11,825 nt of DNA from Actinomycetota bacterium (GTDB lineage: Bacteria; Actinomycetota; Thermoleophilia; Gaiellales; Gaiellaceae), in the NCBI GenBank assembly GCA_016870235.1, contig VGCB01000025.1:1-11825 (forward strand). Reading direction: 5' to 3'. This document shows positions 1 to 4,212 of the stretch, one piece after another; the first letter of the stretch is position 1; each line of letters opens with the position of its first letter. The notes beneath the pieces were generated by a model. The model did no database searches, was not told the origin of the DNA, and worked only from the letters and a program-made list of their open reading frames with translations. The position numbers were made by a program, and so were the translations under genes.

Positions 1-658
1 CGCCGCGGCCGCCCACGACGTCGGCGCCACGCTCGTCGTCGACAACACGTTCGCCTCGCCGTACCTGCAGACCCCGCTCGACCTCGGCGCCGACGTCGTC
101 ATCCACTCGGCGACCAAGTACCTCGGCGGCCACTCCGACGTCGTCTCCGGCGTGATCGCGACGAACGACGCTGCGATCTCGGAGCGGCTCCGATTCCTCC
201 AGAACTCGCTCGGCGCGATCCCCGGCCCGTTCGACGCGTGGCTCGTGCTCCGCGGCCTGAAGACGCTCGCGGTCCGGATGCGGCAGCACTGCGAGAATGC
301 GCGCGCCGTCGTCGAGTTCCTCTCGGGCCACCCGCGAGTCGAGCGCGTCCTCTACCCGGGGCTCCCCGACCATCCCGGGCACGAGATCGCCGCCCGGCAG
401 ATGCGCGACTTCGGCGGCATGGTCTCCTTCCTGCTCGCGAGCGAGGAGGAAGCAGTCGCGACGGTCGCGCGCACGAAGGTCTGGACGCTCGCAGAGTCCC
501 TCGGCGGCGTCGAGAGCTTGATCGAGCACCCGTACCGCATGACGCACGCCTCGACCGCCGACGCGCCGTTCGCCGCTCCCACCAACCTCGTGCGCCTCTC
601 GGTCGGGATCGAATCGGCCGAAGACCTCGTGGCCGACCTCGACGACGCGCTGTGTTGA
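1..658 (+). CDS. metB: Cystathionine gamma-synthase/lyase, 3' part (5' end outside window)
   Basis: PLP-dependent trans-sulfuration enzyme of the Cys/Met metabolism fold-type I family, acting in the cytoplasm on O-acyl-homoserine plus cysteine or on cystathionine. The frame is open from base 2, giving 218 visible residues, a little over half of the usual 380-400. Visible residue 14 is the Asp of VVDNTFASPYLQTP, the family's cofactor-contacting strand. The Schiff-base lysine is K39 in SATKYLGGHSD. The C-terminal signature TLAESLGGVESLIEHP followed by MTHAS is intact. A Glu sits in ESLIEHP where cystathionine gamma-lyases have their specificity Glu; actinobacterial MetB-type enzymes also carry it, so synthase and lyase cannot be separated from sequence. 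It ends in TGA just before a strong hairpin (670-733). The ATG-like start at 152 is internal to the enzyme and is not the gene start. Family assignment is firm; the symbol is tentative. Confidence 0.5.
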   Translation, partial: AAAAHDVGATLVVDNTFASPYLQTPLDLGADVVIHSATKYLGGHSDVVSGVIATNDAAISERLRFLQNSLGAIPGPFDAWLVLRGLKTLAVRMRQHCENARAVVEFLSGHPRVERVLYPGLPDHPGHEIAARQMRDFGGMVSFLLASEEEAVATVARTKVWTLAESLGGVESLIEHPYRMTHASTADAPFAAPTNLVRLSVGIESAEDLVADLDDALC

Positions 659-669
659 TTGCATGCCTG

Positions 670-733
670 CACGTCCTTCTCGCGCGTCAGGTGGAGTGAG
701 GGACCGACGTACCTGACGCGCGAGAAGAACGTG
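670..733. repeat. Hairpin repeat, copy A (conserved GTGAGGGAC loop)
   Basis: The left arm 677-692 (TTCTCGCGCGTCAGGT) and right arm 711-726 are perfect 16-bp complements around an 18-nt loop, GGAGTGAGGGACCGACGT. An outer 5-bp extension (CACGT/ACGTG, 670-674 and 729-733) pairs past a 2x2 mismatch. The element starts 11 nt after the metB-like stop and could end that transcript, but no T-run follows. The same loop recurs at 909-926 and, inverted, at 1527-1543, so this is a dispersed repeat rather than a gene-specific terminator. Confidence 0.5.
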
Positions 734-744
734 CCCACTTGGTC

Positions 745-871
745 AGGGCTGGGGCTCGAATCAAACGCTCCGTCTCCTGAAGCCAGGGGAACGGGGCTCC
801 CCTAGGGAACCCCTCCTGCACTCGGATCCTCCACCTCGCCCTTCCGCGTCTGGCTTCAGCCAGACGCGACC
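745..871 (+). repeat. Body of composite repeat unit A
   Basis: This stretch follows hairpin A and matches 960-1086 closely over its whole length. Shared blocks in order are GGGCTGGGGCTCGA, CCTGAAGCCAGGGGAAC, GGGAACCCCTCC, CACCTCGCCCTTCCGCGTC and a terminal palindrome at 845-868. That palindrome has 11-nt arms, CGCGTCTGGCT and AGCCAGACGCG, around TC. Block CTGAAGCCAG (778-787) is also the complement of CTGGCTTCAG (850-859), so a longer fold is possible. There is no credible reading frame. Confidence 0.5.
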
Positions 872-887
872 TTGATCGAGTGCTCGG

Positions 888-947
888 CCGTGTTCTCGCG
901 CGTCCGGTGGGGTGAGGGACCGACGTACCAGACGCGCGAGAACACGG
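888..947. repeat. Hairpin repeat, copy B
   Basis: Arms 888-908 and 927-947 pair over 21 bp with a single C/A mismatch (905 against 930). The 18-nt loop 909-926, GGGGTGAGGGACCGACGT, differs from the copy A loop at one position. The core TTCTCGCGCGTC recurs 216 bp after its position in copy A. The outer stem here is CCGTG against CACGG, whereas copy A has CACGT against ACGTG, so both sides of the stem have changed together. Confidence 0.5.
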
Positions 948-959
948 CTCCACTGTTGT

Positions 960-1086
960 AGGGCTGGGGCTCGAGTCGATCGATTCGTTTCCTGAAGCCA
1001 GGGGAACGAGGTTCCCCTTGGGAACCCCTCCGGGACTCGGGTCCAGCACCTCGCCCTTCCGCGTCTGGCTTCAGCCAGACGCGACC
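960..1086 (+). repeat. Body of composite repeat unit B
   Basis: Second direct copy of the unit body at 745-871. It contains an internal hairpin, GGGGAAC (1001-1007), GAG, GTTCCCC (1011-1017), then GGGAACCCCTCC and the terminal palindrome at 1060-1083, identical to 845-868. In copy A the equivalent internal hairpin has one mismatch. No coding signal is present. Bases 1087-1163 after it are single-copy and show nothing recognisable. Confidence 0.5.
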
Positions 1087-1163
1087 CGACGGACGCCGTC
1101 GATCACCAGGGCGTCAGAGCGCGGAAGCCCTGATCCCGTGCAGACTGCCTCGTCCCTGGAGAC

Positions 1164-1428
1164 GCGTCTGGCTGAACCTGGATCCACCGATTCGCGCGGG
1201 CGGATGCATCCTGCCGGGCCCGCCAGGCCGCGTACCACCTGGGCTTCGCTTGATCTCGATCACCTCGGTGGTGTTCACCCAGGCGGCGCGCTCCGCGCGC
1301 GGAACCGTTCGCAAAGGCACACGCATTCACGAACGGTTCCGCGCACGTCCTGACGACCCCGGCAGGCGCGCGCAGTCGAATGATCGAGCGATCACGCGCA
1401 TCGGTGGATCCAGGCTGAAGCCAGACGC
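1164..1428. repeat. Element bounded by imperfect inverted repeats of about 34 bp
   Basis: The left end (1164-1198) and the reverse complement of the right end (1395-1428) both read GCGTCTGGCT, then a 2-3 nt variable patch, then an identical CCTGGATCCACCGAT (1177-1191 and 1400-1414), then a GCGCG-type end. The interior of about 200 bp is non-coding and rich in smaller inverted repeats: CCTGGG/CCCAGG at 1238/1278, CACC/GGTG near 1261, and a perfect 15-bp hairpin at 1297-1344. The size and terminal inverted repeats resemble a non-autonomous transposable element (MITE). I see no target-site duplication, and no transposase is present. Confidence 0.5.
1297..1344. repeat. Perfect 15-bp hairpin inside the 1164-1428 element
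   Basis: GCGCGGAACCGTTCG (1297-1311) and its exact complement (1330-1344) enclose an 18-nt loop, CAAAGGCACACGCATTCA. The loop length matches hairpins A and B, but the arm and loop sequences are unrelated. No T-run follows on either strand, so a terminator is unlikely. Confidence 0.5.
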
Positions 1429-1564
1429 GGAGGCCCTGGGGCACGGCGCCAGACTCGACCTCGAGGGAGGGCCCCCAGGGAACCGGAGGTTCCCGGCTTC
1501 AGGATCCGCAGGCTCGCGCGTCTGGTACGTCTGTCCCTCACCCACCAGGCGCGCGAGCCTGCGG
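1413..1564 (-). repeat. Composite repeat unit, inverted copy C, with hairpin at 1506-1564
   Basis: Read on the minus strand this starts with a 21-bp hairpin (1544-1564 against 1506-1526, one G-T type mismatch) around a 17-nt loop, GGGTGAGGGACAGACGT. CTGAAGCC follows, then the internal hairpin GGGAACC/GGTTCCC (1478-1494), a diverged spacer, and CGCGTCTGGCTTCAGCC (1414-1430). The order matches units A and B, but the GGCTGGGGCTCGA block is missing and the terminal palindrome is broken, running into CTGGATCCACCG. The outer edge at 1564 abuts a Nudix-like gene remnant. Confidence 0.5.
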
Positions 1565-1580
1565 CAGCAAACACAGCGGG

Positions 1581-1694
1581 GTCGAGTGGCTGCCTGTGGA
1601 ACGCGCCGAGGAGGCGATCGCGGCGGGCGAGGTGACGGACGGGTTCACGCTCACGGCGCTCCTCTGGACGCTGCGGGCTCCCACGAGCCGCTGA
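1581..1694 (+). pseudogene. C-terminal remnant resembling a Nudix hydrolase (ADP-ribose pyrophosphatase type)
   Basis: In this frame the DNA reads VEWLPVERAEEAIAAGEVTD, then GFTLTALLWTLRAPTSR and TGA: 37 codons. The pattern of a Trp-x-Pro strand, a short helix, GE(V/I)xD and a helix with xTLxALL is the usual C-terminus of ADP-ribose pyrophosphatase-like Nudix proteins. The Nudix box and everything N-terminal are absent, and the matching sequence begins within about 15 nt of repeat copy C. The simplest reading is a gene whose 5' part was lost when the repeat tract formed or expanded. The family match is from memory of the C-terminal pattern only; a chance resemblance is possible. Confidence 0.5.
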
Positions 1695-1796
1695 CGCCCG
1701 CGTCGCGAGCACGGTCGTCGCGCGGCGGTCGACGGCCGCGCCACCCGCCGAAACGGAATTGGTGCAAAGTCGACACGCAATCGGCACACGCCGACA

Positions 1797-1825
1797 CAGA
1801 CACGCAACACCTTCCCCGATAGAAT
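1797..1825 (+). promoter_or_regulatory. Putative sigma-70-type promoter
   Basis: CAGACA (1797-1802) and TAGAAT (1820-1825) are separated by 17 nt, matching the -35 consensus at four positions and the -10 at five. Transcription would begin near 1832, immediately before AGGGGAGGAGGT. The next solid gene starts at 1995, leaving a leader of about 160 nt. The metallo-hydrolase also has its own closer leaderless-type -10, so this may be a second promoter or one belonging to an unrecognised small product. Confidence 0.5.
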
Positions 1826-1861
1826 CGATCTCAGGGGAGGAGGTCGGTGGCCCAGGGACAG

Positions 1862-1876
1862 TGTCCGAAACGGACA
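1862..1876. repeat. Short inverted repeat TGTCCG-AAA-CGGACA
   Basis: A perfect 6-bp inverted repeat with a 3-nt AAA centre, preceded by another half-site in the order GGACA, TGTCC, GGACA (1856-1876). It lies about 30 nt downstream of the predicted transcription start from the 1797-1825 promoter. It could be an operator or a small RNA hairpin; nothing identifies a regulator. Confidence 0.5.
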
Positions 1877-1982
1877 GCGCAGGCGGGCGACGACGGACGA
1901 GCAGCGGGCGCGGCGGGCGCCGTCGACAGCCGATCACACCGACACCCCCGCACCCGTCGCCGGCCCCCGACCGGCCCTCGGG

Positions 1983-1988
1983 TACCGT
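1983..1988 (+). promoter_or_regulatory. Leaderless-type -10 element for the metallo-hydrolase
   Basis: TACCGT ends 6 nt before the GTG at 1995, placing the expected transcription start at the start codon itself. There is no Shine-Dalgarno sequence. The same TANNNT-to-start geometry occurs before four other genes in the window. Confidence 0.5.
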
Positions 1989-1994
1989 CCCGCC

Positions 1995-2861
1995 GTGAGG
2001 AGCCACGCCCCGATCGACCTCCTCCACCGCGGTCTCGAGCGCGGCGTCGCGAGCTACGTCGTCGAGACGAGCGACGGCCTCGCGCTCCACGACTGCGGCC
2101 CGGCGAGAACCCTCGCTGCGCTCGAAGCGGGCCTCGCGGAGCGGGGCCTCGCGTTCGCCGACCTCCGGCACATCCTCCTCTCGCACATCCACTTCGACCA
2201 CGCCGGGGCCGCCGGCGCGATCGTCCGCGCGAACCCGGCGATCCAGGTCCACGTCTCCGCGATCGGAGCCCCACACCTGATCGACCCGACGCGGCTCGAG
2301 GCGAGCGCGCGCCGCCTCTGGGGCGACGCGTTCGACACGCTCTGGGGCGCCGTGACGCCGATCCCCGAGGAGAACCTCCACATCGTCGGCGGGAGCGTCC
2401 TCGGGCTCGAGTGCTTCCCCACCCCCGGGCATGCACGCCACCACGTCTCGTACCTCCACGAGGACGGGACGCTGTACGCCGGCGACTCGCTCGGTGTCCG
2501 GATCACGCCGGGCAGCTACATCATCCCACCGACGCCGCCGCCCGAGATCGACCTCGACGCCTGGGAGCTCACGATCGAGGAGAGCCGCCGCCGCGCGCCT
2601 GCGCGTCTCGCGCTCAGCCACTACGGCGTCTTCGACGACGTCGAGTCGCACATCGACACGCTCGAGGCGACGCTCCGGCTCTGGGCCCGCCGCGTCGAGG
2701 AGGGCATGGGCGAGGAGACGTTCACGCGCCTCGCCCGCTCGGAGCTCGCCGCCTCCGATCGCGAGCTGATGCCGATGTACGAGAACGCCGCCACGATCGG
2801 CAACTGCCACTCGGGCATCGCCAGGTACTGGCGGAAGCGCAGGGAAGCGGCTGGTTCGTGA
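1995..2861 (+). CDS. Metallo-beta-lactamase-fold hydrolase
   Basis: A cytoplasmic-type MBL-fold metallo-hydrolase of 288 residues without signal peptide. All canonical metal ligands are visible: H64, H66, D68 and H69 in SHIHFDHAGAAG, H146 in PTPGHARHH, D164 in YAGDS and H209 in LSHYG. It should therefore be a catalytically competent dinuclear metal enzyme. The substrate cannot be told; the broad family includes glyoxalase II-like thioesterases, lactonases and other hydrolases. The C-terminal part after residue 215 is a helical extension beyond the core fold. The GTG start is chosen because TACCGT lies 6 nt upstream (leaderless geometry) and the protein begins directly with the first beta-strand region. 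It is followed within 6 nt by a hairpin repeat and appears monocistronic. Confidence 0.5.
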   Translation: MRSHAPIDLLHRGLERGVASYVVETSDGLALHDCGPARTLAALEAGLAERGLAFADLRHILLSHIHFDHAGAAGAIVRANPAIQVHVSAIGAPHLIDPTRLEASARRLWGDAFDTLWGAVTPIPEENLHIVGGSVLGLECFPTPGHARHHVSYLHEDGTLYAGDSLGVRITPGSYIIPPTPPPEIDLDAWELTIEESRRRAPARLALSHYGVFDDVESHIDTLEATLRLWARRVEEGMGEETFTRLARSELAASDRELMPMYENAATIGNCHSGIARYWRKRREAAGS

Positions 2862-2866
2862 CGCCC

Positions 2867-2921
2867 TAGTGCGGCGTCTCACAACCTCAGACAGGAAAGG
2901 TCGTTGTGAGACGCCGCACTA
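2867..2921. repeat. Perfect 19-bp hairpin repeat (copy 1), possible terminator
   Basis: Left arm 2867-2885 (TAGTGCGGCGTCTCACAAC) and right arm 2903-2921 are exact complements around a 17-nt loop, CTCAGACAGGAAAGGTC. It begins 5 nt after the metallo-hydrolase stop and could terminate it, although no T-run follows. A diverged second copy lies at 2938-2994. Stem and loop lengths resemble hairpins A-C upstream, but the arm sequences differ. Confidence 0.5.
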
Positions 2922-2937
2922 CCATGCCTTCTTCTGA

Positions 2938-2994
2938 CAGTGCGGCCTCATGGGCGCTGGAGTGACCCGTCGAACGTTGTGCGAGGCCGCACTG
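2938..2994. repeat. Diverged hairpin repeat (copy 2) spanning the exporter's start codon
   Basis: CAGTGCGGCCTC (2938-2949) and GAGGCCGCACTG (2983-2994) are perfect 12-bp complements. The arms align with copy 1: AGTGCGGC-CTCA against AGTGCGGCGTCTCA, and CGTTGTGCGAGGCCGCACT against CGTTGTGAGACGCCGCACT, with overall lengths of 55 and 53 nt. The ATG of the MFS gene is the first base of the 33-nt loop, so the first 15 codons of the annotated gene lie inside the repeat. Confidence 0.5.
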
Positions 2995-4212
2995 GCGCCG
3001 CTCGGCCATCGGGAGTTCCGGCTCCTCTTCGCCGGCCGCGTGACGTCGTTCATCGGCAGCGCGATGGCGCCGATCGCGCTCGCGTTCGCCGTCATCCACC
3101 TGGGCGGCTCGCCAACCGATCTCGGCCTCGTCGTCGCAGTCGGCGTCGTTCCCCTGATCGTCTTCCTGCTCGTCGGCGGCGTCATCGCCGATCGGATCCC
3201 GAAGAACGTGGTCATGGTCTGGTCGAACGTCGGCGCGGCGGCCGTCCAGGGGGTGGCGGCGGGGCTCCTCCTCGCCGGCGTGGCCGAGATCTGGCACCTG
3301 GCGGCGATCTCGCTCGCGCGGGGCACGATCAGCGCGCTCTTCTTCCCCGCCTCTTCCGCGATCGTCCCGCAGACGGTGCCGCGGAGCCTGCTGCAGCCCG
3401 CGAACGCGCTTCTCCGGCTCGGGATCAACGGCACCAACGTCGGCGGGGCCGCGCTCGGCGGGCTGATCGTGGGCCTGGCCGGCCCCGGCTGGGCCTTGCT
3501 CGTCGACGCAGCCTCGTACCTCGTGTCCGCGGTCGTGCTCGCGCTGATGCGGGTCGAGAGCCCCGCGGACGCCGGCGCCAGGCTGTTCCTCGCCGAGCTG
3601 AAGCTGGGCTGGCGCGCGTTCGCCGCCCGGACGTGGCTCTGGGTCGTCGTGATCGCGTTCGCGTTCGGGAACGCCCTCGAGTCGGGCGCGATGACGGTTC
3701 TCGGCCCGATCGTCGCGGAGCAGTCGCTCGGCGGCGCCACCACATGGGGGCTCGTCCTCGCCGCCCAGGGCATCGGGCTCGTCGCCGGCGGGCTCGTCGC
3801 CGGCGGCCTCGTCGCTCTGCGGATCCAGGCGCGCCGACCGCTCCTGTTCGGCGTGCTCGGCGCCTGCGCGCTCCCACTCCCGATCGTCCTGCTCGCGATT
3901 CCGGCCCCCGCGATCGCGATCGCCGCCGGCGCCTTCGCCCTCGGCGTCGGGATCGAGGTGTTCGCGGTCAACTGGGACCTCTCCGTCCAGGGACACGTCC
4001 CCGCGGAGCTCCTCTCGCGCGTCTACGCCTGGGACGCGGTCGGCTCGATCGCGCTGATGCCGATCGGCCTCGCGATCGTCGGCCCGATCGCCGAGACGGC
4101 CGGAACGAGCGCGGCACTGTGGGGCTGCGCCGCGCTCGGCCTCCTCGCGATGACGGCGCAGCTGCTCGTCCGCGACGTGCGCGAGCTCGGCCGCCCCGCG
4201 CTCGACGCATAG
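2950..4212 (+). CDS. Major facilitator superfamily exporter (EntS-like, MFS_3 type)
   Basis: A 12-TM inner-membrane secondary transporter of 420 residues, normal for the family, probably a proton-driven drug or small-molecule exporter. The N-terminus LAPLGHREFRLLFAGR followed by TSFIGSAMAPIALAF is the usual beginning of EntS/MFS_3 exporters. Motif A between TM2 and TM3 appears as GGVIADRIPKN. The substrate is unknown. The start is uncertain: ATG 2950 has neither a Shine-Dalgarno sequence nor a leaderless -10, an in-frame TGA at 2935 blocks extension, and codons 1-15 fall inside a hairpin repeat. GTG 2962 or TTG 2977 are alternatives, and family similarity begins only about residue 15. It converges on DUF2237 with both stops in one hairpin. 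Confidence 0.5.
   Translation: MGAGVTRRTLCEAALAPLGHREFRLLFAGRVTSFIGSAMAPIALAFAVIHLGGSPTDLGLVVAVGVVPLIVFLLVGGVIADRIPKNVVMVWSNVGAAAVQGVAAGLLLAGVAEIWHLAAISLARGTISALFFPASSAIVPQTVPRSLLQPANALLRLGINGTNVGGAALGGLIVGLAGPGWALLVDAASYLVSAVVLALMRVESPADAGARLFLAELKLGWRAFAARTWLWVVVIAFAFGNALESGAMTVLGPIVAEQSLGGATTWGLVLAAQGIGLVAGGLVAGGLVALRIQARRPLLFGVLGACALPLPIVLLAIPAPAIAIAAGAFALGVGIEVFAVNWDLSVQGHVPAELLSRVYAWDAVGSIALMPIGLAIVGPIAETAGTSAALWGCAALGLLAMTAQLLVRDVRELGRPALDA

Follow-up and report, generated by a model that had tools for sequence, protein, structure and literature searches.

A palindromic repeat array of probable REP/BIME type in a Gaiellales-like bacterium combines long-loop hairpins with REP-like palindromes

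The window considered here, an 11,825-nt stretch of contig VGCB01000025.1, contains a metB-like gene, which by its Pfam match encodes an enzyme of Cys/Met metabolism and ends with a stop codon at 656-658. The next gene starts at 1995 and encodes an MBL-fold protein, whose named matches include proteins from Thermoleophilia (62%), Gaiellaceae (64%), and Gaiella sp. (63%). The two genes are separated by 1336 bases (659-1994). In 11 of 14 relatives the corresponding distance, taken between match ends, is only 5-130 nt, while in the other three it amounts to 1.0, 1.3, and 4.0 kb; one additional genome, in which the two genes lie on different contigs, was left out. The gap of the window therefore looks expanded. 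Four of its hairpins, namely A, B, C, and the one at 1297-1344, have stems of 15 pairs or more, and stems of this length did not occur in any of 200 dinucleotide shuffles of the gap.

A few neighboring features should be mentioned here. Two of the relatives, G257 (locus L149) and G259 (locus L147), have one palindrome each, of different sequence, in their short metB-MBL gap, which may therefore be a favored site. In the window, two further hairpins lie between the MBL and MFS genes, at 2867-2921 and about 2938-2994, with folding z scores of -8.0 and -3.5, respectively. Their left arms are alike by eye (GTGCGGC.TC.CACAAC), and their motif has no match in the relatives' loci that were compared. 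Finally, a short, stop-terminated frame on the + strand (1575-1694) adjoins hairpin C. We take it to resemble the C-terminus of a Nudix hydrolase; it has neither a Pfam match nor a match in 15 relatives, and could be what is left of a gene.

Hairpins A, B, and C (Table 1) are found at the positions given in the first-pass annotation, with stems that are longer than the 16-21 bp reported there, namely 21-24 pairs including one C.A mismatch each. The nearly identical loop of 17-18 nt that had been described is confirmed, the identity being 17/18 between A and B and 16/18 for both A-C and B-C. The folding z scores of the three hairpins range from -6.0 to -7.0 over both strands, and in all six combinations of hairpin and strand each of 200 shuffles folded less well.

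In a three-row alignment of the stems, 95.8% of the cells pair. Invariant pairs make up 16 of the 24, one pair departs only through an unpaired cell, and one-sided variation is absent. Both sides have changed in the other seven pairs, a number reached in 0 of 500 shuffles (mean 2.7); this covariation comes from three copies at a single locus, and because A and B are arranged in tandem, the independent evidence in it is small. When the arms are gapped by hand, double compensated changes appear at 5 of 24 positions, together with two paired indels, and the uncompensated changes amount to one for A-B, two for A-C, and three for B-C. In this alignment, the stems of B and C are set apart by four double compensations along with three changes on one side only. 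The outer pairs had been said to differ between the copies while remaining paired. The changes are indeed paired, but A and B have homologous outer stems; the notion that these are unrelated was dropped, as hand alignment reduces the difference to the flip of a single pair plus two paired indels. The internal position described as A-T in A and T-A in C is occupied in B by its C.A mismatch.

The loop of A and C, with its 16 of 18 identical positions, stands against an adjoining spacer in which only 44 of 85 positions agree. Such a difference points to a constraint acting on the loop and the fold, more than to the copies being merely young. The proposal of selection on the folded form is borne out, in that the hairpin is held as a structure, its stem changes being paired, with the loop kept while the spacer is nearly lost.

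Each hairpin opens a larger repeat unit, which closes with a second palindrome, CGCGTCTGGCTTCAGCCAGACGCG; in unit 3 this palindrome is split, and the spacer is shorter by about 31 nt. The 9-mer CGCGTCTGG occurs eight times in the window when both strands are counted: six times in the REP-like palindromes, once in hairpin B, once in hairpin C, and nowhere else, while hairpin A has an altered form of it. As the 9-mer is common to the palindromes and to B and C, the two kinds of hairpin share an inner stem.

Table 1. Coordinates of the repeat array and of the element inserted in it.
Feature	Position	Strand	Details
Unit 1 (hairpin A, palindrome, and between them a spacer that has weaker hairpins)	660-876	+	from tandem spacing (hairpin A to hairpin B, 215 nt) and folds; ends approximate
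Hairpin A	669-734	+	24 pairs, one C.A mismatch; loop 693-710
REP-like palindrome closing unit 1	845-868	+	apex CTTCAG; folding z -6.5
Unit 2 (hairpin B, spacer, palindrome)	877-1089	+	from tandem repeat and folds; ends approximate
Hairpin B	887-948	+	22 pairs, one C.A mismatch; loop 909-926
REP-like palindrome closing unit 2	1060-1083	+	identical to the palindrome of unit 1
Unit 3, inverted, split by insert	1155-1565	-	ends approximate
Unit 3 palindrome, outer half, cut at apex	1163-1176	-	our reading; 9-mer at 1163
MITE-like insert, 238 bp	1177-1414	.	inverted ends CCTGGATCCACCGATNCGCG
Unit 3 palindrome, other half	1420-1429	-	our reading; 9-mer at 1421
Hairpin C, inverted copy	1506-1564	-	21 pairs, one C.A mismatch; loop 1527-1543

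The palindrome of unit 3 is split at its apex by an insert bounded by two copies of CTGAA (1172-1176 and 1415-1419). With terminal inverted repeats, target duplications, and no transposase gene, this insert has the features of a MITE. Its end sequence was found at seven sites in 3 of 129 relatives (0 for the control). In three of the seven loci the two ends are present together with a 5-bp duplication (CTCAG at L192, CTGAG at L193, and CTAAG at L196), while the remaining four have a single end or no duplication. A MITE-like element with the ends CCTGGATCCACCGAT and differing lengths is seen in three or more Gaiellales genomes.

The REP-like partner palindrome, present in the window as two whole copies and a split third, is multicopy in relatives. 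A search of 129 genomes of one order found its exact 18-mer core, GTCTGGCTTCAGCCAGAC, 56 times; these sites belong to six genomes, with 35 in a single one (G250), and the reversed control gave no site. A looser pattern, with three free stem positions per side, matches 326 sites in 19 of the 129 genomes, as compared to two control sites in all 129; the numbers are 77 in G255, 68 in G258, 67 in G259, 35 in G250, 29 in G248, 15 in G257, and 12 in G249. Like REPs, which measure about 20-40 bp, the CTTCAG palindromes are short and occur in many copies per genome. They are also arranged in inverted pairs in a BIME-like manner: 61 copies form 28 pairs of neighbors no more than 120 nt apart, which are oriented -+ in 12 cases, -- in 8, ++ in 5, and +- in 3. 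A second palindrome family, e.g., GGGGTCAGGCACC...GGTGCCAGACCCC, was noticed in several copies in the first 400 kb of G258 (L092-L111); it keeps a non-pairing base in the middle of the stem.

The stems of the CTTCAG family vary in pairs. Among 150 listed sites, whose same-genome copies are kin and hence not independent events, Watson-Crick pairing is seen for N-N at 136 (against 42.8 if the arms were independent), for R-Y at 144 (against 84.7), and for S-S at 148 (against 124.6). Full complementarity is seen at 130 of these 150 sites, which display nine stem types. Such a variety of stems around a fixed apex is hard to explain without a held structure. Pairing specific to the individual copy extends beyond the core, with a mean run of 3.49 in 55 copies against 2.08 when the arms are re-paired, the highest of 2000 shuffles being 2.53. 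The gain comes mainly from outer positions 1, 3, 4, and 5; positions 4-9 jointly give 121/330 against 99.0 (sd 7.7), a value exceeded (125) by at least one of 2000 shuffles. Outer pairing private to the copy is therefore a habit of the CTTCAG family too. In both kinds of hairpin, complementary arms are kept through paired changes, and the apex or loop is the stable part.

The unpaired GTAG or CGTC tag that marks one end of a REP was not found at a fixed place beside 109 CTTCAG copies, and past the third base from the core no flanking position exceeds 0.33 bits. GTAG is not enriched within 25 nt of these copies (9 on the left and 3 on the right, about 6.8 expected). CGTC is present within 25 nt on the right side of 24 of the 109 copies and on the left side of 14, about 13.7 being expected from the left flanks, which is a mild excess on one side with no fixed place.

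Further copies of the long loop, by which the first-pass annotation had proposed to judge the family, have not been found so far in the genome collection, in viral contigs, or in 129 genomes of the order and 399 of the class. In the genome collection the loop pattern matched twice, in Kribbella and in a Defluviitaleaceae MAG, and both were rejected: the hairpin model R1 gave them 13.3 and 20.1 bits, as compared to 86-92 bits for A, B, and C. The viral contigs gave no match to the pattern, and plasmids and phages no match either. Over the 129 genomes, R1 found two candidates at E <= 0.01, both lacking the loop sequence, in a lossy search that scored the best 39 of some 90-660 candidates per genome among those shown. 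In the 399 class genomes, drawn from a larger group, the core of the loop matched three times, as did the control, with no hairpin match over the stem; the three matches were discarded, as R1 covered only model positions 27-44 at 12.7-14.4 bits. Units 1 and 2 as queries against the same 399 genomes, with the best two candidates per genome scored, retrieved no unit, the matches at E <= 0.01 in at least 34 genomes reaching at best 48 bits over 56 bases. The open frame running through units 1 and 2, used as a protein query, gave 160 candidates, none at E <= 1.

The remark in the first-pass annotation that no named family with this loop is known agrees with the absence of any Rfam match to them in 500-3100 at E <= 1. 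The Rfam family mir-H3 was matched by the other stem, at 1297-1344, and was rejected (E 0.42, 26.8 bits against a gathering threshold of 70). Searches of the open-access literature returned no report of repetitive extragenic palindromes in Gaiella or of actinobacterial extragenic palindromes with a hairpin, and for palindromic repeats in Thermoleophilia only work that is unrelated by its title and the start of its abstract; none of the RAYT papers found there mentions Actinobacteria. So far, the long loop appears to be private to this contig.

A nearby REP-associated tyrosine transposase (RAYT) had been suggested as something to look for. Of 18 relatives, 12 have Y1_Tnp genes at E <= 0.001, and in 10 at least one of these genes lies above the family cut-off. 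In G257, a RAYT-like gene of 206 aa (L130, 3407-4027, - strand) is flanked on both sides by CTTCAG palindromes, three exact and one imperfect (the whole spanning 3240-4122). The gene scores 28.1 bits with Pfam Y1_Tnp (cut-off 23) and 52.7 bits (E 3.9e-14) with the NCBIfam model for REP-associated tyrosine transposases, below the curated cut-off of 80, and matches a solved TnpAREP only at E 0.26. The suggestion is thus upheld in part, by a flanked RAYT-like gene in one relative and by the inner stem shared with the palindromes there, but this concerns only one of 18 Y1_Tnp loci: the same scan found no CTTCAG palindrome beside the other 17, and G250, which has the most exact copies (35), has no Y1_Tnp match. 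We regard the link between CTTCAG palindromes and RAYT as suggestive only. The gene of G257 and its flanking palindromes may represent a natural pair of protein and substrate.

On the basis of the above, the array is probably a patch of REP/BIME type, that is, palindromic repeat DNA of a Gaiellales-like bacterium whose hairpins would be read by a RAYT-like protein. That the DNA is of the REP type is the part of this reading in which we place the most trust, and we lean toward folded DNA over RNA. That a RAYT is the mover is a tentative proposal, and the direct reading of the loop by a protein is put forward with similar reserve. In the unit, an ordinary REP-like palindrome, with its fixed apex CTTCAG, would be combined with a long-loop hairpin that is built on the same inner stem sequence. 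This hairpin resembles bacterial repeat elements already known, of which it would be an unusual variant with a long loop. The hairpin would fold when the strand is single, during lagging-strand replication or transcription, and a RAYT or a similar hairpin-binding protein would then read the apex or loop together with the inner stem. Copies that keep these parts would persist and spread, while the outer stem would drift in pairs. The 17-nt loop might then be a lineage-specific recognition loop. No long-loop copy was found outside this locus in the genomes and contigs searched, so that the mobility of the long-loop hairpin itself is putative.

We have also considered that the long-loop hairpins form a class of their own, mobile or regulatory, in which the fixed 17-nt single-stranded loop is recognized and the stem is only structural. 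They would have arisen from an untagged Gaiellales REP family and be read together with it, one protein recognizing both kinds of hairpin through the shared inner stem; this we hold to be doubtful. Another account invokes local duplication, by slippage or unequal exchange, with template switching between the arms and without selection, the loops being alike because the copies are young. The tandem arrangement of A and B, the two paired indels among their paired changes, and the confinement of all copies to one locus, with none found elsewhere, are what it would predict. However, with the spacer between A and C so decayed and five stem positions changed twice, youth alone does not account for the likeness of the loops, and in many genomes the stem of the partner palindrome varies in pairs while its apex stays fixed, which makes this account unlikely. 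It is also improbable that the hairpin and its loop are selected at the RNA level, as a cis-acting element or a small RNA. The strong folds would suit a structured RNA, and the three C.A mismatches become G.U on the opposite strand; hairpin C additionally has an unpaired G.A at its base. However, three mismatches are few, and the REP-like family, with 6 G.T and 7 A.C cells, has no strand bias; A and B are oriented one way and C the opposite way, and Rfam offers no match to the hairpins.

Two further possibilities relate the hairpins to transposition in trans and to the ends of genes. A non-autonomous unit of the IS200/IS605 type, mobilized by a Y1 transposase acting in trans, would have neither terminal inverted repeats nor a target duplication. 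It would account for a hairpin near each end of the unit with a shared inner stem, and the Y1_Tnp genes of the relatives could supply the enzyme. Units 1 and 2 are moreover preceded by TTGAT (655-659 and 872-876), the target of ISDra2, but as these units stem from one tandem event they provide at most one independent case; TTGAT is absent before unit 3, and there is no second locus, so that we find such an origin quite improbable. The hairpins could instead be transcription terminators of metB and its neighbors that are alike by chance. Hairpin A does start 10 nt past the stop codon of the metB-like gene, and several REP-like copies in relatives sit just past stop codons (by eye, uncounted), but no T-run follows hairpin A and a 17-nt loop would not be common to independent terminators. 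We judge this last explanation most improbable, and a terminator effect of the hairpins could be a side effect.

The location of the MITE-like element in a REP-like palindrome recalls the insertion sequences that target REPs (PMC1525189 and PMC8450116); the element differs from them in being short, MITE-like, and geneless, and in lying at the apex with a 5-bp duplication. For the RAYT protein TnpAREP, the accessible text of PMC8266576 names GTAG as a main determinant. The mechanism proposed here is similar to that of TnpAREP in that a protein would read loop or stem irregularities of a folded single strand, whereas the CTTCAG copies have no fixed tag beside them and the RAYT candidate is known here from the relative G257. 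The REPINs described in the consulted sections of PMC3116915 are REP doublets that form hairpins, with paired changes within the REP hairpins. The present hairpins are similar in that their inverted arms fold into one long hairpin and that changes in one arm are compensated in the other. However, REPINs conserve the outer REP while the inner spacer varies, whereas A, B, and C conserve the inner stem and loop while the outer stem varies, so that they are not REPINs in this sense.

The closest likeness in the type of repeat is to the REP/BIME elements of the GTAG and CGTC superfamilies, which the portions of PMC3733652 at hand describe as small multicopy extragenic palindromes, often in inverted pairs, with sub-families that have alternative complementary stem residues and with some copies inside other palindromes. 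The GTAG families have stems of 6-13 bp and mostly loops of 2-3 bp, although a few loops are complex. Multicopy extragenic palindromes, inverted pairs, and alternative paired stem residues are likewise found here, but the CTTCAG family is without a fixed-place tag, and hairpins A, B, and C, at 59-66 nt, exceed those palindromes in length and have a conserved loop of 17-18 nt. The REP families compared, as far as the excerpts go, are sorted by their GTAG or CGTC tags, next to which the Gaiellales palindromes would stand as an untagged REP family with a fixed apex and covarying stems, accompanied by a long-loop relative with the same inner stem. Such natural variants of stem and loop would serve to learn what a hairpin-reading transposase needs.
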